A DNA stretch of 22,777 bases, from positions 1-22,777 of IMG/VR virus record IMGVR_UViG_3300043570_001584; one strand, 5' to 3'. Shown here one piece after another: positions 2,930 to 21,816 of the stretch. Every line of letters starts with the position of its first letter. The stretch's first letter is position 1. Source of the stretch: a virus. The notes under the pieces are model-generated. The model had not been told where the DNA came from, ran no database searches, and saw nothing but the letters and a program-made list of their open reading frames with translations. A program made the translations under genes and the position numbers.

Positions 2930-3478
2930 TTACTTATATTGCTCCTTGACTAAGAACGGCCCTGAGGTGTTCATGTCTAATTTCTCAGCAACGGCTAGAG
3001 CCTTGAGAGGCTTTGCTCCTGCATGGAGTGCCCCAATCGCATAACTAGCGCCAGAACCTACTCCGTAGATCCCGTCATCACTCATACAGATAGAGCAGTC
3101 ATCGGCAACATCAAATACCTCACCACCAACTGCAACTAGGAAGTTAAAGCGAGAATCATTACCTTTTCCATCGCCTTTGCCCTCACTGAAGTCATGGCCG
3201 TTCTCTATAAGGCATTTTCTGAGAGAAGGCATCACTTTAACAATCATGAAGTGATAAATGTCTTGGAGATCTTTTGCAGTTGGTTTTGGCGGATTCCACA
3301 AGTGCTGTGCAATATCGCAAGGTGCAACTTCTCCAGAACCAGCAATTAAGTAACCATTGCGTTCTGTAATCTTTTCCATTCGAGGATGGTGGTAAATACG
3401 ACCGTCATCACCAGTCACCTGGTTATCGGCAGCAAAAACAACTTTGTCCTCATACTGCACCGCTACGATCGTTGTCAT
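2930..3478 (-). CDS. Proteasome/HslV-like Ntn-hydrolase
   Basis: This 182-residue protein begins M-T-T-I-V-A-V. After loss of Met, the Thr would be the N-terminal nucleophile of a proteasome-beta or HslV-like peptidase. D18 (A-A-D-N-Q) and K36 (M-E-K-I) match the conserved Asp17 and Lys33 of that family. Residues near 137-148 (G-V-G-S-G-A-S-Y-A-I-G-A) match the Gly-Ser-Gly/Ala segment. The length is near the family norm of ~175. GAGGGAGAG precedes the start. No unfoldase partner of the HslU or Mpa type is in the window. It sits just after the endolysin gene. A role in processing phage or host proteins is inference. Confidence 0.8.
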   Translation of the reverse strand: MTTIVAVQYEDKVVFAADNQVTGDDGRIYHHPRMEKITERNGYLIAGSGEVAPCDIAQHLWNPPKPTAKDLQDIYHFMIVKVMPSLRKCLIENGHDFSEGKGDGKGNDSRFNFLVAVGGEVFDVADDCSICMSDDGIYGVGSGASYAIGALHAGAKPLKALAVAEKLDMNTSGPFLVKEQYK

Positions 3479-7223: not shown

Positions 7224-7325
7224 CTACCCCTCTTCACAGATGCACTTGCAGGTGTCAATGATACAGCAGCCGTACGCGATTTCATGGTCACATAGACGAC
7301 AATACTGTTTCGGTTTCTCAATCAT
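7224..7325 (-). CDS. 33-residue Cys-rich zinc-binding miniprotein
   Basis: ATG at 7325 overlaps the upstream TGA by 4 bp (ATGA), and the stop is 2 bp before the next ATG. The product has seven Cys and one His in 33 residues: Y-C-R-L-C-D-H, G-C-C, then C-K-C-I-C. The C-x2-C followed by further Cys residues suggests a zinc ribbon or knuckle. Small size is the main uncertainty; gene packing and cysteine pattern are the evidence. Confidence 0.6.
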   Translation of the reverse strand: MIEKPKQYCRLCDHEIAYGCCIIDTCKCICEEG

Positions 7326-7771
7326 GCCTTCATATCCCTGGGCTTCTTGTATGTGCGAGTTCTTGCACTAGGGTAGGTACGAGTTGGTGAGAACTCGCCA
7401 TCATTGCTTAGGCCGTTCCATGCACCCGTCTTTGGATCTGCTAGAGGTCCAGTCATACCAGTGACCTTCACAGGCTTTCCAATTGTTGCAGATACTTCTT
7501 TCTCTGCCTTAGTTGGATCAATAAAGTCAGCATCTTTGATAACACGTTCACGACTAAGAGTATGAGGATCTGTCTCTACAGAACTCATCGGTATCTCACC
7601 ATGGATGACGTGACCGAATGGTCCAGCAAATCTTCTTGCTACCTTTATATCTGCAGACCAGTGCATACCTAGCCATCTACCTTTTTGGGGTTTACGAGTT
7701 ATACCGCGATGTACTGGGAAAGATAGTTCTGGCTGTTGCCATTGACGTCCTAGATGATCTTGGGCGCTCAT
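7322..7771 (-). CDS. R-S-E type ADP-ribosyltransferase-like protein with LGRQW tag
   Basis: In this 149-residue protein the tag variant L-G-R-Q-W is at residues 7-11. R22 (P-V-H-R-G), S39 (M-H-W-S-A-D) and the pair E90-K-E92 are ordered as in arginine-type mono-ADP-ribosyltransferases (R, S-T/S, E-x-E). A helix with A-R-R-F-A follows the Ser strand, also typical. The C-terminal 40 residues are basic and probably disordered. T4-like phages inject such enzymes to modify host RNA polymerase, so a host-takeover role is plausible but unproven. It overlaps both neighbours by 4 bp. Confidence 0.62.
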   Translation of the reverse strand: MSAQDHLGRQWQQPELSFPVHRGITRKPQKGRWLGMHWSADIKVARRFAGPFGHVIHGEIPMSSVETDPHTLSRERVIKDADFIDPTKAEKEVSATIGKPVKVTGMTGPLADPKTGAWNGLSNDGEFSPTRTYPSARTRTYKKPRDMKA

Positions 7772-9751: not shown

Positions 9752-10123
9752 TCACTTGTCTGGAAAAATTTTCTTGTACCGCTCTACTACCTTGTCAGGT
9801 ATCTGACGCTTTATTTCAAAACCTTCTGGATGACCATAAACCTCGGAGCCGTGGTATTCCAAGGAATCGTCATTCTCATCGCCCCTTACTTCGTAAACAT
9901 TTTTTCCATATTGGGAAGCATCATGGAGGCTACTACTAGCAAAGGCAAGGTCTTCACCATAACGTGAGCGAGGGGTATCAAAGACGTGCTTGCCTGACTC
10001 TTCGTCTATCTCGTCGTTCTCTGAGGCATCTCCAGGGTAGATGTGCTGACCCTTGGGGATATCCACATTAGTACCATGGAATAGACGGAACTGATTCTTT
10101 GATAGATGATCTGATGCGCTCAT
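9752..10123 (-). CDS. Arr-like ADP-ribosyltransferase with N-terminal LSKNQF tag
   Basis: In this 123-residue protein the tag L-S-K-N-Q-F (7-12) runs directly into R-L-F-H-G-T (H16). H16 begins the NAD-binding core of H-Y-E-type ADP-ribosyltransferases such as rifampin transferase Arr. Next come I-Y-P-G (28-31), then L-A-F-A-S-S-S-L-H-D-A-S-Q-Y-G (59-73) and N-V-Y-E-V (75-79), in the same order as Arr ('YFT..L..A...A..G...VY.V'). The length is close to Arr (~140). Small-molecule or protein targets are both possible. It starts on the last base of the preceding stop. Confidence 0.72.
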   Translation of the reverse strand: MSASDHLSKNQFRLFHGTNVDIPKGQHIYPGDASENDEIDEESGKHVFDTPRSRYGEDLAFASSSLHDASQYGKNVYEVRGDENDDSLEYHGSEVYGHPEGFEIKRQIPDKVVERYKKIFPDK

Positions 10124-10158
10124 TATTTCCTACTCTCGTCATGTCCTAAAGAGAAATG
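10121..10158 (-). repeat. 38-bp direct repeat, copy 1
   Basis: Identical to 10723-10760. It covers the last codons of the ADP-ribosyltransferase gene, its stop and the following ATG. It marks a tandem duplication of about 602 bp. Confidence 0.9.
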
Positions 10159-10725
10159 GTTTTGACGTGGAAGGTTATGTCCTGGGAAGCCCACCTCTTG
10201 CTTGATAGGCATTTCTCCTTCAAAGTGGTAGTAACCAGAATCACCTCGTAGATTAAGTTGACTATGATCTATTTCGTAGATGTGGCCACCAACACCAGCA
10301 TGACTAGCGGCATCATGTAGGTCTTCAGTAGCAAAGGCTGCCTCTGGACCAGCACCGCCCCATTCTTCACCACGCTGCTTGGTGGGTTTAATGACGCCAT
10401 CTTTAATTGTCTTAGGAGTTCCATGGAATAGTCGAACCTTCTCCATTGGCTTTTTCTCTTGTGGGTAAGTAGGTGGCTTCATCTTCTCACGCTTACGAAC
10501 CGTTGGGTCTATCTTCTCTTCCCAAGCACGGACGTCATTCATGTGCCCATGGTGAAAAGTTCTTGGACCACCACGATGATCCACGGACCAAGAGGAAGTA
10601 CCTCCTGCGCTCTGGTGTATCTGCTTTAAACCTGCAGTAAATTTTTCATAATCTGTAATATCGGCATTTGCAGGACAACTAGCATCAGTGCACTCTGGCT
10701 TAGGGTCTCTCTTTGGTTTTGCCAT
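10123..10725 (-). CDS. ADP-ribosyltransferase-like protein with extra N-terminal region
   Basis: In this 200-residue protein, residues 1-95 are polar with C12 and C17 and no tag. The ADP-ribosyltransferase part begins at V-R-L-F-H-G-T (H101), continues with A-A-F-A-T-E-D-L-H-D-A-A-S-H-A-G (129-144) and H-I-Y-E-I-D (148-153), and ends F-S-L-G-H-D-E-S-R-K. That ending is identical in the next paralogue (10725-11132) and the DNA over the last 38 bp is identical too, so one arose by recent tandem duplication or conversion. Its stop shares a base with the next ATG (TAATG). Confidence 0.7.
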   Translation of the reverse strand: MAKPKRDPKPECTDASCPANADITDYEKFTAGLKQIHQSAGGTSSWSVDHRGGPRTFHHGHMNDVRAWEEKIDPTVRKREKMKPPTYPQEKKPMEKVRLFHGTPKTIKDGVIKPTKQRGEEWGGAGPEAAFATEDLHDAASHAGVGGHIYEIDHSQLNLRGDSGYYHFEGEMPIKQEVGFPGHNLPRQNHFSLGHDESRK

Positions 10726-10760
10726 TATTTCCTACTCTCGTCATGTCCTAAAGAGAAATG
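10723..10760 (-). repeat. 38-bp direct repeat, copy 2
   Basis: Identical to 10121-10158, at the same place in the upstream paralogue. Confidence 0.9.
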
Positions 10761-11132
10761 CTTAAGTCTAGCAAGGTTTAACCCTGGACGACCGACTTCC
10801 TGCTTGATAGTCAGCGGGCCACCCTCGTTGAAGGCGTTATCGTGTGAGTACTTACTAAAACCTGTATCGAGGTCATCGGGCTTCTCGTGCACCTCGTAGA
10901 TGTGGCCTGAGTCTCCTGCAAACTTTGCTGCCTGGTGTATGTCCGATGTGGCCCAGGTACCCTTGATCCCACCCTCTTCGAAGCCGAGGCGGTCTGCACT
11001 CACATAGTGAGGGTCGATCTTATCTCCCGTGATCTTCTTGGGACTGCCGTGAAAGAGGCGAACCTTGCTATCAGGCTTCTTGATCTGAGGTACTACCTCA
11101 CCTTCGAGACCTCTACTCACCTCCTGAGCCAC
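10725..11132 (-). CDS. ADP-ribosyltransferase-like protein, start or frameshift uncertain
   Basis: The domain has V-R-L-F-H-G-S, W-A-T-S-D-I-H-Q-A-A-K-F-A-G and H-I-Y-E-V, the Arr-like order, and ends like its neighbour (F-S-L-G-H-D-E-S-R-K). The start is unclear. GTG at 11132, with GGAG 6 nt upstream, gives 135 residues. A GTG at 11189 has no ribosome binding site and adds an Ala/Val/Gln leader read from DNA that codes Gly/Ser in another frame. The tag-plus-linker gene at 11113-11358 ends in this region one frame away, so a +1 shift would fuse tag, linker and enzyme. Confidence 0.62.
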   Translation of the reverse strand: MAQEVSRGLEGEVVPQIKKPDSKVRLFHGSPKKITGDKIDPHYVSADRLGFEEGGIKGTWATSDIHQAAKFAGDSGHIYEVHEKPDDLDTGFSKYSHDNAFNEGGPLTIKQEVGRPGLNLARLKHFSLGHDESRK

Positions 11133-11358
11133 CGCTATCTCCGCCTGAACTGCCACTGTCTCCGCCTGAACTGCCGCTGCCCTGATCACCAGAGCCTGTA
11201 ACTGTCAAGCCATTGCCGTAACCGTAGCCATAGCCGCTCCCATAGAAGCCTGAATAGAGGCCGTAGTAGCCTCCGCTAACTAGGTAGCCTCGATCTCGGC
11301 GCAAGCGCTCCGCTTCGCGGATTGCCCTATCGAACTGCTTACGGCTCAAATTGCTCAT
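11113..11358 (-). CDS. LSRKQF-tagged protein with Gly/Tyr and Gly/Ser low-complexity tail
   Basis: The 81 residues are: tag L-S-R-K-Q-F at 4-9, a charged helix (A-I-R-E-A-E-R-L-R-R-D-R), a Gly/Tyr-rich part (G-F-Y-G-S-G-Y-G-Y-G-Y-G), and a Gly/Ser/Asp linker to the stop. There is no folded enzyme domain. The Gly/Ser linker ends at TAG (11115-11113) directly after AGGAGGTGA, a full match to the 16S anti-Shine-Dalgarno sequence, and the ADP-ribosyltransferase continues in the +1 frame. So this may be the front half of a fusion, made by programmed frameshift or broken by an indel, or a separate small protein. Confidence 0.6.
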   Translation of the reverse strand: MSNLSRKQFDRAIREAERLRRDRGYLVSGGYYGLYSGFYGSGYGYGYGNGLTVTGSGDQGSGSSGGDSGSSGGDSGGSGGE

Positions 11359-13406: not shown

Positions 13407-13466
13407 AATCATTCAAAGTGAAAAAAGCGAATCGTTAAAACTGGCAACAGGCTTTAACAATAATTT

Positions 13467-13556
13467 AATAATAAATAAAAATCGGTGTACCAACCTGCGA
13501 GAGATTTCCCTTAGTGGACAGTACTTGGGTGACGATCAATTTATTTATTTATTATT
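13467..13556. repeat. 13-bp AT-only inverted repeat
   Basis: AATAATAAATAAA at 13467-13479 is the exact reverse complement of 13544-13556. One GGTGTACCA lies between the arms. Possible DNA unwinding element. Confidence 0.6.
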
Positions 13557-13794
13557 CATAGTGACTAAGAAACTGCGATTTATTTATTCGGTAATAGTTA
13601 TCACTAATAACTAGTTATCAAGGCAGAAATTGTGCGGTCGAATTATCCGATGCAATAACACCGAAATAAATAATTGATCCGATCATGCTTGCTACGGCGA
13701 TGCGAATGTAATTAGTAAATACATTCAAGCGGTATATCAAGGGTACGGATTAACGATTAAGAAATTAATTGTGGATAGCAGTAGGGCTTAGGGA

Positions 13795-13986
13795 ATGAAG
13801 TGTGGAGATCGTTATGTAATTAGTGACGGAATGTCTCTACTAGTGAGTGCAGGTGGTAATCAATCCAACCGAATGCACATTGAAACTAGTTACAACAAAA
13901 ACAATCAGCACTTCTGCTTATGTGTTAATAGTGATCGATCGCTGATAAATGATCTGCGAATCATCTTTGGCGATCGATCGCTATGA
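13795..13986 (+). CDS. 63-residue protein, possibly first early gene
   Basis: The product is 63 residues with C3, C42 and C44 and no recognised motif. TAGGG lies 8 nt before the ATG. The gene is rich in GATC (several copies near 13935-13980, including GATCGATCGC twice), which may be regulatory as well as coding. It is followed by an 8-bp-arm inverted repeat at 13985-14005. Coding status is likely but not certain: the nearby region is non-coding and the gene is not coupled to neighbours. Confidence 0.5.
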   Translation: MKCGDRYVISDGMSLLVSAGGNQSNRMHIETSYNKNNQHFCLCVNSDRSLINDLRIIFGDRSL

Positions 13987-14005
13987 ATACATAATCGATG
14001 TATTC
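13985..14005. repeat. Inverted repeat GAATACAT/ATGTATTC
   Basis: Perfect 8-bp arms with a 5-nt spacer, overlapping the stop of the preceding gene and 39 bp before the next ATG. It resembles the GAATGTA/TACATTC repeat at 13704-13726. Possible operator pair or weak hairpin. Confidence 0.5.
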
Positions 14006-14719: not shown

Positions 14720-14989
14720 ATGAACCCAAGATTTACACTCGATGAACTCGGACTCATGCACACCATGATCGGCGTATCACTAGAGAATGCAAATGAGAAT
14801 GATGCACCTGCAAAGATCATTCATACTTTGCAATCTCTTATGGAAAAACTTGAACCGCTAATTGAAGAAGAGTGCAACATCTTCAACGCCTTTCAAGATA
14901 TGACAACACAACTCGATGATCTGTACCTTGCATCAAAGATCATCGTTAAAAATCCTGATGCAGTTACAACCGACTACCAAACTAACTAA
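14720..14989 (+). CDS. Acidic helical protein of unknown function
   Basis: This 89-residue protein is Leu/Glu/Asp-rich with long predicted helices (T-L-Q-S-L-M-E-K-L-E-P-L-I-E-E-E) and one Cys at residue 53. No motif is recognised. Its start abuts the stop of the membrane peptide. It ends 22 bp before the ATPase gene. It may be an adaptor for the following ATPase, by position only. Confidence 0.7.
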   Translation: MNPRFTLDELGLMHTMIGVSLENANENDAPAKIIHTLQSLMEKLEPLIEEECNIFNAFQDMTTQLDDLYLASKIIVKNPDAVTTDYQTN

Positions 14990-15011
14990 TCACCTAGAGA
15001 AACGGAATACC

Positions 15012-15896
15012 ATGTCTACAACCGAAAACAAATCCCTGTTCGTTCCTACATTGGAAAAAACATCACACTACATACCACGCACCTTTACTGGTGGCGTTAC
15101 AGAAGATGCTATGTACGACTTCGCACTTGCTAACAACATGAACATCTTGATCGAAGGCGATGCTGGAACTGGTAAAACAACTTCGGCACTTGCTTACGCA
15201 TCGAAACGCCACATGAACTTCTTTGCAGTACCTTGCAACTCTGCGATCGACTTCACTCAGTTAATCGGTGGCTTGTTCCCTGATGCTGACGGCAAACTAA
15301 AGTGGGTTGACGGCGCGATCACAAAGATCGTTCGTGAAGGTGGCTTGTTACTTATCAACGAGTTAAACAACGCACCAAAGAACCTCTCCCAGTACCTCAT
15401 GTCACTACTCGATGATCGCCGATCAATTACTCTCATGTCACATGACAACGAAGTAATTACTGCTCACCCTGATCTTCTTGTGGTTGCGGATCAGAATCCA
15501 AACTATCGTGGCACTCAGTTACTTAATGAGGCGTGGAAAGATCGCTTTGAAATTAAATTGCGATTCGATTACGACAACACGATCGAGAAGAAGATCATCA
15601 CATCATCTTCACTACTGGAACTCGCAAATGGAATGCGATCAACATCTCGCAGAGAAGATCACGCATCAGATCGTGGCACTATCTTTGAGACACCAGTATC
15701 ACCACGCATTCTAAAAACCTTTGAAAAGGTTGCTAAGGGCTTGTCATTCGACTTTGCTTGCGATGTATTCGTAAACAACTTCTCTGATGAAGAGCGACCA
15801 GCAGTCAAGATGCTTCTTGAAGGAACTTCATACAACATTCGAGAAGAACTAGGGCTCGATGCTGAACCGATCACAACCGAATACGCACAGGCTTAA
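15012..15896 (+). CDS. MoxR/CobS-like AAA+ ATPase
   Basis: In this 294-residue protein, Walker A is G-D-A-G-T-G-K-T at 49-56 and Walker B is L-L-L-I-N-E at 112-117. Sensor 1 is A-D-Q-N-P-N-Y (N162) and the arginine finger lies near R178 in D-R-F-E. The Walker B form and the following Q-Y-L-M-S-L-L-D-D fit the MoxR/CobS/NorQ clade, which remodels or loads metal into partner proteins, usually with a VWA protein. The next gene codes just such a partner. The ATG at 15012 is preferred; an upstream ATG at 14916 would overlap the previous gene. Confidence 0.88.
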   Translation: MSTTENKSLFVPTLEKTSHYIPRTFTGGVTEDAMYDFALANNMNILIEGDAGTGKTTSALAYASKRHMNFFAVPCNSAIDFTQLIGGLFPDADGKLKWVDGAITKIVREGGLLLINELNNAPKNLSQYLMSLLDDRRSITLMSHDNEVITAHPDLLVVADQNPNYRGTQLLNEAWKDRFEIKLRFDYDNTIEKKIITSSSLLELANGMRSTSRREDHASDRGTIFETPVSPRILKTFEKVAKGLSFDFACDVFVNNFSDEERPAVKMLLEGTSYNIREELGLDAEPITTEYAQA

Positions 15897-15898
15897 CA

Positions 15899-17926
15899 AT
15901 GTGTGCCTGTGGTAAATGTCCGTCATGCAAACGACAGAATGGAGTAACTGTGAAATATCACGATGCTATTGAAGAGTGGGAATTAGATATTCTCGGTGAA
16001 ACTCGTGACTCTCTGCGTATTAAAGCGCAGAAAGAAGAAGAGAAGAAGCAACGATTAGAACGCTTCACGCAATTCTTCGGTCGTGTTAATTCTGCATTCA
16101 CCTTTCGCAAAGTGACTGTGAATGTTGAGAACTCAACTATGGAAGCACCTGCTTGGTCAGGTGCATCAACTGTCACATTCAACTCTCGTGTCATTGGTGA
16201 TCTAAATGATGCTAAATCAATCGCTGGTATCAAGGGGCTTGATCTTCACGAGATCAGTCACATTCTTTATACATCTCGTGAAGGATCAGAAATCTTTGAT
16301 TATGTACGAGATAACAATTACTTCATGGCATACAACGCACTTGAAGATCAGAGAATCGAAACCTTGTTTACTGCAAAGTATCCGTCAACGATTGATTGGT
16401 TTACTGCCACGATCTTGATTCACTTTGTAGATAATCCAAAGGCATTCACTAACTCTTATCCGTTACTGCGTGGTCGTAGGTATCTCTCTACTGAGTTACG
16501 GGCTCGATCTCGTAACGCATATCCTGAACAGGATCAGATCAATGAAATCTGTGCAGTAGTCGATGAATATCGCACTCTTCTCTTTCCTGCTGATACTGAA
16601 AAAGGGAAAGAATTAATTGCGCGATTTAATGACCTGCTACCTAAGGGTGACGGATCAGGTAATGGATCAGGTGACGGATCAGGTGAAGGTGGCTCTGTCA
16701 GCCCTGCAAAGGCTGGTGAAGAGGGTAACTGCGTGATCCGTATCAATGACCCATTCGGTCATGGATCACGACCACATGAGGGCTTGGAATCTTCTGCAAC
16801 ATCACGACCTGTACCGCCTAAGAAGCAAGAGAAAGATCGTGATCGATCTCAGCAATTAGACAAGGTTGATGATGCAGAGTTAGCCGATCAGTTAAAGAAT
16901 AAACCGATCATTGATGTTGATATTAACGACATTGATTTTGGTGATGATGATTCTGATCTTGGTGATGATTCTGATCTTGATTCTGATCTAAATGAAGATC
17001 AAGAATCTGATCACGATTCTGATTCTAATTCTGCTGGTGATTCTGCTGGCGATCTAATTGATACATTGATTACAGATTTATTAGAGAATCTTCTTGATGC
17101 TAATGAAACTGAAATCAATAACATCTTGCGACAAATTGGTGGCTTACCTTCTCTTGCTACTAACAATTCTAAAGAACCTGAGTTAGATCGCTTTCATGAT
17201 TTAACTCCTGATGCAAATACATTTCAGGCATCTCTTTCATTCGGTCGTGAGTTAGAACGATTGAAAGCATCATTCGATCCTGCATGGGATCGCTATGAAT
17301 CACAAGGTCGCTTGTCTGCACATCGCTACTTGCGTGGTGATGAACTCGATACTGTATTCGATCAATGGAATGAAGGTCGTGAAGATGCGACTGAGATCGA
17401 ATGCGTGATCTTGTTAGACAACTCAGGATCAATGTCAGGACACAAAGCCTCTAGTGCGTACAAAGCCATGTACGCGATTAAGAAGGCACTAGATCGTGTT
17501 AATGCAAATACAACTGTTATCACTTTCAATGATCGTGCTAACACCTTGTATCGTGCAACTGATCGCGTTGGTAACACAATTCGTGATGCTGGTACTGGTG
17601 GTGGAACTAATGCTACTGATGCAATTCAGTACGCCACTAAATTACTTGCTGAGACTGAGAAGCCTGTTCGTATCTTCTATGCAATTACTGACGGAGATTG
17701 GTCAGGCAATCAAGATGCTAATCACGAAACGATCAAGCGCATGGCTCGTGCTGGTGTGCTTACTGCATTCGCGTACATTCCTGAAAGCACCGAACCTGTG
17801 GAACTGAATGCAGATAAATCTCACTATTGCGAGATCGCTTCTGTAATTCGTAATCCATTCGATCTTGTTTACATGGCTAAATCGATCGTGAAGTACGCGA
17901 TCTCTCGCCGTCTAGTAAACAACTAA
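15899..17926 (+). CDS. CobT-like VWA protein with HExxH motif
   Basis: In this 675-residue protein, an N-terminal Cys cluster (C2, C4, C7, C10) is followed by a domain with H117-E-I-S-H121 and N-A-L-E-D at 146-150, the spacing of a zincin-like metal site. Next are a Gly/Ser linker (~245-265) and a very acidic Asp/Ser segment (~345-390). The C-terminal VWA domain has the MIDAS motif D507-N-S-G-S-M-S. Pairs of MoxR ATPase and VWA protein work together, the ATPase acting on a target held by the VWA. Similar pairs occur in phages without a known target. An internal GTG at 15950 (GGAG 5 nt before) is a possible alternative start. Confidence 0.85.
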   Translation: MCACGKCPSCKRQNGVTVKYHDAIEEWELDILGETRDSLRIKAQKEEEKKQRLERFTQFFGRVNSAFTFRKVTVNVENSTMEAPAWSGASTVTFNSRVIGDLNDAKSIAGIKGLDLHEISHILYTSREGSEIFDYVRDNNYFMAYNALEDQRIETLFTAKYPSTIDWFTATILIHFVDNPKAFTNSYPLLRGRRYLSTELRARSRNAYPEQDQINEICAVVDEYRTLLFPADTEKGKELIARFNDLLPKGDGSGNGSGDGSGEGGSVSPAKAGEEGNCVIRINDPFGHGSRPHEGLESSATSRPVPPKKQEKDRDRSQQLDKVDDAELADQLKNKPIIDVDINDIDFGDDDSDLGDDSDLDSDLNEDQESDHDSDSNSAGDSAGDLIDTLITDLLENLLDANETEINNILRQIGGLPSLATNNSKEPELDRFHDLTPDANTFQASLSFGRELERLKASFDPAWDRYESQGRLSAHRYLRGDELDTVFDQWNEGREDATEIECVILLDNSGSMSGHKASSAYKAMYAIKKALDRVNANTTVITFNDRANTLYRATDRVGNTIRDAGTGGGTNATDAIQYATKLLAETEKPVRIFYAITDGDWSGNQDANHETIKRMARAGVLTAFAYIPESTEPVELNADKSHYCEIASVIRNPFDLVYMAKSIVKYAISRRLVNN

Positions 17927-17987: not shown

Positions 17988-18024
17988 AGTGAGTGGGGCT
18001 TGGTTTTGTCTTGCCCCACTCACT
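17988..18024 (+). terminator. Strong hairpin, possible terminator
   Basis: AGTGAGTGGGGC (17988-17999) pairs perfectly with 18013-18024 over 12 bp around a 13-nt loop. It follows the VWA gene by 61 bp and precedes the next ATG by 33 bp. No T-tract follows; actinobacterial terminators often lack one. It could instead stabilise or attenuate the mRNA. Confidence 0.55.
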
Positions 18025-20584: not shown

Positions 20585-20752
20585 ATGGGATATGCACAGA
20601 TCATTCGTAGGGTAGAAGCCCACGAACTAACTAATTGCGATGATTGCGGGAATGACGAACTTACTTCATCAGGCAGATTGATCTTGGATTCAAGAGATGA
20701 ACCTGTGATGTGGTTCTGCTTTAACTGCGTTCAGAAAATAACTACAAAGTAA
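20585..20752 (+). CDS. 55-residue zinc ribbon protein
   Basis: C18-x2-C21 and C45-x2-C48 enclose a strand-rich middle, a typical four-Cys zinc ribbon. A GGAG lies 8-11 nt before the ATG, inside the previous gene. It is the last gene before the structured non-coding stretch at 20757-21014; its stop is 4 bp before the first closing stem begins. Confidence 0.7.
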   Translation: MGYAQIIRRVEAHELTNCDDCGNDELTSSGRLILDSRDEPVMWFCFNCVQKITTK

Positions 20753-20756
20753 CTTT

Positions 20757-20878
20757 ATCGAGTAGGGGTCAACGCAGGGTTAACGACAGGGTTAATTCAT
20801 TTCCCTATCTCCTTACCTGCTAAGGGCGATCATGATCGGCTTCTATGATTGCCGTAGTCGTATCTGCCCCTACTCGAT
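20757..20878 (+). ncRNA. Structured element 1 with 12-bp perfect closing stem
   Basis: ATCGAGTAGGGG (20757-20768) pairs perfectly with 20867-20878 around a 98-nt interior. The interior holds CAGGGTTAA twice-like repeats, AGGG/CCCT and GCAGG/CCTGC pairings, and the palindrome CGATCATGATCG. T-rich sequence (20883-20887) follows the stem. It could be a structured RNA, a leader or terminator-like element, or a DNA cruciform. No open frame fits it. Confidence 0.5.
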
Positions 20879-20885
20879 TCTATTT

Positions 20886-21014
20886 TTGGTAGAGATCATT
20901 GACACCTAGCAGATCACGGCGATCTGTAAAGATGTTATGAAAATCTTGCAAGATCGCTGATCCGTTCTTAGATCAGCGCACGACATCGTTCTACTTCTTG
21001 ATGATCTCTACCAA
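20886..21014 (+). ncRNA. Structured element 2 with 14-bp perfect closing stem and three inner hairpins
   Basis: TTGGTAGAGATCAT (20886-20899) pairs perfectly with 21001-21014. Inside are CAGATC/GATCTG (20910-20926, loop 5), AAGAT/ATCTT (20929-20947) and CGCTGATC/GATCAGCG (20955-20978, loop 8). This makes a cloverleaf-like multi-branch shape. It is not a tRNA: the stem is too long and no T-loop is seen. A T-rich run follows. It lies just upstream of the helix-turn-helix gene. Confidence 0.5.
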
Positions 21015-21043
21015 TTTATTTATTACCTAGAGAGGAATAAAAT

Positions 21044-21217
21044 ATGGAAACTGCACGACTATTCACAATAGATGAAGTAAACCGAATACTTAATGCACGA
21101 TTTGTACATGGTGAATCGTTACAAAGTGTCGCTAATCAATTTGGTACAACTCGCGTTCTGATCCGTAAATTAGAAAGCAATTACTTAAAACGACTCAAAG
21201 GAGAAATACATGACTGA
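21044..21217 (+). CDS. Small helix-turn-helix protein
   Basis: In this 57-residue protein, residues 22-43 (H-G-E-S-L-Q-S-V-A-N-Q-F-G then T-T-R-V-L-I-R-K-L-E) fit a helix-turn-helix of the resolvase or sigma-4-like type, with the turn at F-G-T-T. GAGG lies about 8 nt before the ATG. It follows the structured element directly, so it may regulate, or be regulated by, that region. It overlaps the next gene by 8 bp. Confidence 0.65.
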   Translation: METARLFTIDEVNRILNARFVHGESLQSVANQFGTTRVLIRKLESNYLKRLKGEIHD

Positions 21218-21548
21218 ACTATCCGAACACCAAACTGATCTAATTAAATCAATCACGATCGCTAACGAGTTTCTAAAGATCGTTCGTGGATTCAAGGTTG
21301 ATTCAGATCGCACAGACAGTCTGCCTCAGGAGATCAAGGAGTATCTAGCCAATGAGCATCTCAATACGATCATGGAAGATAAAGAGATCGAACCTGAAAT
21401 GCTTATATGGGGAATGCTTCACATGATCGAGATTCTGTTGAAGTATTCTGATCTTAATCCTGAGGACTTAACAGAGGTAATGGATTCATTCGTTAAATAT
21501 GTTGTGGCAAATCCTGATCAATATACAGATAGGAGTAATGATGAATAG
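21210..21548 (+). CDS. 112-residue acidic helical protein of unknown function
   Basis: The protein is nearly all helical and strongly acidic (for example M-E-D-K-E-I-E-P-E, then L-N-P-E-D-L-T-E-V-M-D), with no Cys. AAAGGAG lies 7 nt before the ATG. The gene overlaps the helix-turn-helix gene and the WhiB gene. It may act as a small regulator or anti-host factor, but this is inferred only from its neighbours. Confidence 0.7.
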   Translation: MTELSEHQTDLIKSITIANEFLKIVRGFKVDSDRTDSLPQEIKEYLANEHLNTIMEDKEIEPEMLIWGMLHMIEILLKYSDLNPEDLTEVMDSFVKYVVANPDQYTDRSNDE

Positions 21549-21816
21549 ATTTGAGATCACGAATGCGCCATGTCAGAAGGGCGTTGATCCTGAAATCTTC
21601 TTTCCTGATCCAACAGAGACGGCAAAGATTCATGAAGCAAAATCGATCTGCGGTCAATGCGATCCAGTCACAAAGAATGAGTGCCTGACATTCGCACTCA
21701 CTAATGGTGTGCAGTACGGCATCTTTGGTGGGCTTACTGAACAAGAGCGTAGCAATTTACGCCGAAGAGAGAACCGAAAGTACAAGCAATATGTATCAGT
21801 AGTGGGGGAATACTAA
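21541..21816 (+). CDS. WhiB-family iron-sulfur transcription factor
   Basis: This is a 91-residue protein. C11, C37, C40 and C48 would bind a [4Fe-4S] cluster, and G-I-F-G-G at 60-64 is the WhiB turn before a basic helix (L-R-R-R-E-N-R-K). WhiB proteins bind the primary sigma factor and are confined to actinobacteria and their phages. Here the last pair is C-x2-C-x7-C rather than the usual C-x2-C-x5-C, an insertion of two residues. The second of two adjacent ATGs is chosen because AGGAG lies 5 nt before it. The phage copy may redirect host transcription. Confidence 0.88.
   Translation: MNRFEITNAPCQKGVDPEIFFPDPTETAKIHEAKSICGQCDPVTKNECLTFALTNGVQYGIFGGLTEQERSNLRRRENRKYKQYVSVVGEY

Follow-up and report, generated by a model that had tools for sequence, protein, structure and literature searches.

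The gap between two genes at positions 20753-21043 (291 bp) of a 22,777-base virus record, IMG/VR IMGVR_UViG_3300043570_001584 (this whole stretch is referred to here as the window), raises the question of what two successive elements with long closing stems contribute to the virus. Since the window carries a WhiB gene (ORF 21499-21816), the virus is an actinophage. The original prediction described two tandem units in the gap, each closed by a perfect stem, and offered phage small RNAs, a regulated leader or a protein-bound DNA cruciform as explanations. The coordinates proved exact: unit 1 (U1) was closed by 12 bp (20757-20768/20867-20878) and unit 2 (U2) by 14 bp (20886-20899/21001-21014), with 7 nt between the units. 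On the RNA strand these stems reached 13 pairs, the last a U-G, and 17 pairs, including two G-U. The units were not copies of each other, as the word tandem might suggest, but unrelated RNAs. The helix-turn-helix gene expected downstream was also present, its Sigma70_r4 match lying just above the cut-off (Table 1).

Table 1. Positions in the window of the two structured RNAs, their parts and the flanking genes.
Feature	Position	Strand	Evidence or remark
U1 RNA, three-way-junction ncRNA, new family	20757..20878	+	RNAalifold/MAFFT covariation, covariance-model (CM) matches in 37 loci, relatives
U1 P1, 5' strand (pairs with 20866-20878)	20757..20769	+	sequence variable, pairing kept
U1 P1, 3' strand	20866..20878	+	covariation
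U1 P2, 5' strand GCAGG (pairs with 20816-20820)	20774..20778	+	double changes in 5/5 pairs
U1 P2a, inner hairpin AGGG...CCCT	20788..20806	+	window-type lineage only
U1 invariant core strand 1 (AAGGGCGATCATGA): P3 5' strand and internal-loop strand UCAUGA	20822..20835	+	alignment, partly selected by search pattern
U1 P4, variable hairpin CGGC...GCCG	20837..20854	+	aligned sequences read directly
U1 invariant core strand 2 (TA-GTCGTATCT): internal-loop strand and P3 3' strand, bulged A20862	20855..20865	+	alignment
U2 RNA, second, unrelated structured RNA	20886..21014	+	8 phages, only directly after U1
U2 P1, 5' strand (17 bp with 20998-21014)	20886..20902	+	double changes in 4/17 pairs, 100% of cells paired
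U2 inner domain, stem GAUGUU/GACAUC (20931-20936/20982-20987)	20931..20987	+	encloses hairpins 20943-20954 and 20955-20978
Upstream CxxC zinc-ribbon-like gene	20585..20752	+	U1 begins 4 nt past its stop codon
Downstream small helix-turn-helix gene (Sigma70_r4-like)	21044..21217	+	Sigma70_r4, 24.2 bits (cut-off 24.1)

The stems had been called unlikely to arise by chance. By length alone this did not hold, because the window held three more perfect stems (12-13 bp) with loops of up to 200 nt, the U2 stem being the longest under the same limit. It was upheld by the folding energies, with an MFE z of -6.1 for the 351-nt region, -5.1 for U1 alone and -5.6 for U2 alone, and decisively by covariation. 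The T-rich runs noticed after both stems were present in the window but not conserved among relatives.

Relatives of U1 were collected in two ways. With the neighbouring protein (21210-21548) as query, 40 viral loci were retrieved; in the loci read that reached far enough upstream, U1 lay between a CxxC gene and a helix-turn-helix gene, with a further gene inserted in L002. A pattern describing the core, with no P1 sequence in it, located U1 in 57 IMG/VR contigs, and a looser pattern for the inner core added no IMG/VR contig to these, so that the flanking core letters were truly fixed wherever the inner core existed. As the distant members were gathered with the core pattern, the invariance of the core is partly by construction; this affects neither the genomic context nor the conservation of P1, P2, P2a and P4.

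The compensatory changes called for by the original prediction were found in these relatives. In a plain MAFFT alignment (n = 22), 17 of the 29 predicted pairs were doubly compensated and 98.9% of the cells were paired; none of 500 shuffles reached this count, and structures slid along the alignment gave 2-6 such pairs. In the alignment of 37 members, which was fitted to the covariance model itself, double changes were counted in 20/29 pairs (21/30 with one extra P2 pair) with 97.4% of the cells paired. Furthermore, the paired columns held 159 G-U cells vs 7 A-C, which assigns the RNA to the plus strand. U1 therefore has the conserved structure with compensatory changes by which a discrete ncRNA gene is recognized, and this comparative evidence showed it to be a plus-strand RNA structure under selection. 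Long perfect inverted repeats and one copy per genome would also suit a cruciform, an origin or a packaging site, but neither DNA pairing nor an element on the minus strand explains the G-U bias, and the structure always lies on the same strand with respect to the operon; a DNA element can be practically dismissed.

The alignments gave a fold in the order P1, a YAA joining strand (J1/2), P2, a single A, P3, an internal loop and P4. P1 showed double changes in 11/13 pairs of the 37-sequence alignment and 9/13 of the MAFFT alignment, and its sequence was replaced entirely among members, as in AUCGAGUAGGGG/CCCCUACUCGAU, GUUGAAUAGGCG/CGCCUAUUCAAC and, in L089, GGCACUGCGCG/CGCGCAGUGCC. P2 and P4 also varied freely. 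By contrast, P3, in which AGGGCGGU pairs with GCCGU-A-YCU and the A is bulged, was near-invariant together with the adjoining loop (AAGGGCGGUCAWGA / RGCCGUAYCUGC) across phages of 39-69% GC. The near-invariance of a base-paired P3 suggests that it is recognized by a partner and does not just stabilize the RNA.

The internal loop, UCAWGA / (G/U)A, resembles the kink-turn, an established RNA motif: between P3 and P4, one strand has a 3-nt bulge (CAW) and then G-A, and the other has GA or UA. The sequence consensus UCAWGA / (G/U)A was present in 37/37 rows, in columns partly fixed by the search pattern. The fit was best in members reading ...GAC / (C,A)GA..., with the 3-nt bulge and tandem G-A, whereas carriers with UA, or with GA and an unpaired U, matched the kink-turn less well. 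The loop is thus k-turn-like in the sense of a resemblance to the consensus. Additionally, a CCUU(U) in the P2 loop (window 20784-20823 and relatives) was conserved in low-GC members. It is complementary to the AAGG that opens the core, and a possible alternative hairpin between the two would break P2; these letters never vary. Reading AAGGGCGGTCATG as a Shine-Dalgarno sequence with a start codon was rejected, the ATG being AAG in many members and base-paired.

Such a conserved core within arbitrary closing stems could also belong to a new small self-cleaving ribozyme, and phages carry several ribozyme classes. The compact junction, the invariant unpaired YAA, the bulged A and the internal loop would fit this. 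However, most invariant positions lie in base pairs, and a wide search of all Rfam families returned no ribozyme match, which makes a ribozyme very improbable.

The genomic context of U1 was then compared among carriers. In most of 23 representatives U1 began 2-12 nt past the upstream stop codon (25 nt in two), and in L083, L088 and L099 there was no near stop codon upstream. A separate intergenic promoter is unlikely because U1 starts right behind stop codons. The upstream genes were mutually unrelated, encoding zinc-ribbon, HNH, WhiB-like, helix-turn-helix and lipoprotein-like proteins. Downstream, two arrangements were found. In lineage A, that of the window, a helix-turn-helix or other co-directional gene followed about 20 nt past U1, or past U2 and about 30 nt, and no terminator was found after U1. 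In lineage B (L083, L084, L085, L090, L092, L095, L098 and L099) an intrinsic terminator hairpin came first and the next gene was convergent, typically the one for class II ribonucleotide reductase or one adjacent to that gene. Within 75 nt past U1, hairpins with a perfect stem of at least 8 bp stood in L084, L085, L090, L092, L095, L098 and L099 (8-14 bp in these seven), and also in L088 and L093, compared with 1.3% of random windows; the terminator was imperfect in L083, and there was none in L094. In lineage B the terminator would give U1 a 3' end of its own. In L084, L090 and their relatives the terminators directly after U1, which lie between convergent operons, were symmetric (A-tract, hairpin, T-tract) and so are probably bidirectional.

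These two contexts bear on the regulated leader, in which a riboswitch or a protein-binding RNA would govern the helix-turn-helix gene by ligand sensing or autoregulation. In the window's lineage that gene begins 17-25 nt past U1, or past U2, and the conserved three-way junction with its invariant core would be in keeping with such a switch. This part of the prediction could thus stand only in the lineage where the helix-turn-helix gene follows. In lineage B a terminator and a convergent gene are found instead, so that U1 is not 5' of a regulated gene across the family and a pure leader function is excluded for the family as a whole. The gene inserted in L002 also speaks against a leader, which we consider quite unlikely; the alternative CCUUU/AAGG pairing is conserved but never varies.

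U1 may alternatively act in cis, as a 3' UTR or intercistronic element that governs how the operon mRNA terminates, is processed by RNase or is stabilized, with no separate life of its own. In agreement with this, U1 follows immediately on a stop codon and, in lineage B, is itself immediately followed by a terminator, and there is no room for an intergenic promoter. Nevertheless, the flanking genes on both sides differ between the lineages, the near-invariant paired P3 exceeds what a stability stem needs, and there is one U1 per genome though phages have many operons. A purely cis-acting element thus appears rather unlikely. HK022 put RNAs, phage RNA stems inside an early operon that act by antitermination in cis, are likewise built of stems within an operon. 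U1 differs from them in its larger size and other topology, and its position directly before a terminator in lineage B makes little sense for an antiterminator.

A MoxR/VWA gene pair was found in 17 carriers, in each case a few kb upstream of U1 and in the same orientation. L097 had no such pair, and in most other carriers without it the contigs were truncated; the linkage is probably synteny. In the window, the MoxR ATPase (14916-15896) adjoins the VWA-domain protein (15899-17926). The latter was considered as a Ro60-like partner and rejected, since it has an HExxH (H117, E118, H121) invariant in 14 phage homologues, weak CobT/DUF2201-type matches and no TROVE domain. The two genes were read as a metallopeptidase-VWA pair.

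A Ro60/TROVE protein (E = 1e-43) was encoded just upstream of U1 on one 69% GC contig (L089, 5867-7495), ending 247 nt before it. This neighbour, together with the closing stem, recalls the Y RNA/Ro60 ribonucleoprotein of actinophages, in which a phage-encoded ncRNA partners Ro60/TROVE proteins. However, TROVE was present in only 1/27 carriers and Ro60 was missing from the other 26. No U1 was found around the Ro60 genes of four cultured phages, nor did its model match any of ten complete genomes of cultured phages, a set that included eight Ro60-encoding actinophages. A Y RNA identity for U1 is thereby largely refuted.

WhiB was encoded in 24/26 carriers of U1, the two others being fragments of 6-9 kb, which identifies the carriers as actinophages. 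U1 was single-copy in 16/16 large phage contigs tested (41-141 kb). Searches for further core copies in the same genomes gave no second CM match and only isolated 12-mers with one mismatch, apart from one exact GGGCGGTCATGA at a second place in G001, also with no CM match. Rfam 15 (4227 families) gave no match at the gathering thresholds, and permissive searches gave chance-level matches only. The pattern, with an estimated chance rate of about one match per 257 Gb, had a single match in 84,980 prokaryote genomes (Paracoccus, L100); it was judged to be chance, lying inside a CDS and scoring 17 bits with no P1. A match in phage PBC5, inside a CDS and with no CM match, was also rejected. In INPHARED, blastn found no U1, although BLAST would miss such short cores, and two proteins encoded nearby in the window had no relatives there.

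No description of U1 was found in searches of the openly accessible literature, subscription papers and preprints being outside their scope. U1 is comparable to the structured ncRNA candidates obtained by comparative genomics, such as a set of 104 motifs (PMC2864571), in being intergenic, supported by covariation, present in metagenomic DNA and without known function. It differs in being restricted here to actinophages and in matching none of the Rfam 15 families. GOLLD and ROOL, large phage-associated RNAs (PMC12286853), are also conserved, ornate and phage-linked, but they measure several hundred nucleotides vs about 90-150 nt for U1, which has no Rfam match. It is well supported that U1 is a new family of structured noncoding RNA encoded by actinophages.

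U2 was found in 8 phages (the window, L003, L006, L007, L008, L009, L043 and L091). Compensation was seen in 5/40 pairs, four in P1 and one in an inner hairpin, with 96.3% of the cells paired; slid structures gave 0-1 doubly changed pairs, and 59 of 500 shuffles reached the observed count. Of the three inner hairpins originally described, the consensus retained two, enclosed by an additional stem, and the first was weak. A minus-strand U2 was considered, since the reverse complement folds better in nearly every relative, and was rejected because the plus-strand paired columns held 15 G-U vs 4 A-C. A mobile, MITE-like insert was rejected as well: empty and filled sites, when compared, resembled a short duplication in one clade but not in L043 or L091, and U2 only ever occurred after U1. 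The predicted U2 structure is well supported at a shallow depth of comparison, and we infer that in some phages U2 is a second, rarer structured RNA in the same transcript as U1.

Several other features of the window were recorded. Between the leftward and rightward operons, a cluster of inverted repeats (13457-13994; 25 nt at 88%, plus AT-rich TTTATTTATT repeats) is a candidate origin or divergent control region. A 12-bp perfect hairpin (AGTGAGTGGGGC/GCCCCACTCACT) lies in an intergenic position at 17988-18024. On the minus strand, several neighbouring genes (7322-7771, 9752-10123, 10123-10725 and 10725-11189) had an FHG-type motif in common (RLFHGSPK/RLFHGTPK, RLFHGTN and VHRGI); they had no Pfam match and are possibly a paralogue array. 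The minus-strand gene 2930-3478 encodes a protein with a weak match to a proteasome subunit N-terminus (E = 1.6e-5).

Taken as a whole, the phage small RNA option gained most for U1, from the compensatory changes in relatives and from the terminator of its own in one lineage. We propose, with a probability of about 0.6 and on comparative evidence, that U1 is a phage ncRNA that is either the 3'-terminal part of an operon transcript or processed from it, and that acts in trans, probably bound by a protein at P3 and the k-turn-like loop. With no intergenic promoter of its own, U1 would be made as the 3' end of the operon transcript or cut from it. The long P1 would protect it, a protein of the host or the phage would bind at the fixed P3/k-turn, and the resulting ribonucleoprotein would act in trans during infection. 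One point against action in trans is that U1 in the window's lineage always precedes a co-directional gene, as a cis element would. The wider proposal, that U1 is a new functional RNA class in many phages that infect freshwater and other actinobacteria, working in trans as a ribonucleoprotein (or as a catalyst) and using its invariant P3/k-turn core for a host-takeover function that no cultured phage is known to have, is put forward tentatively and is somewhat doubtful.

Few conserved phage RNAs that act in trans are known, and actinophages have hardly been explored for them. For U1, a precise covariance model and two genomic contexts for comparison are now available. Because it is single-copy in the large carrier contigs tested and its core is fixed over 39-69% GC, U1 probably has a general role in actinobacterial hosts.
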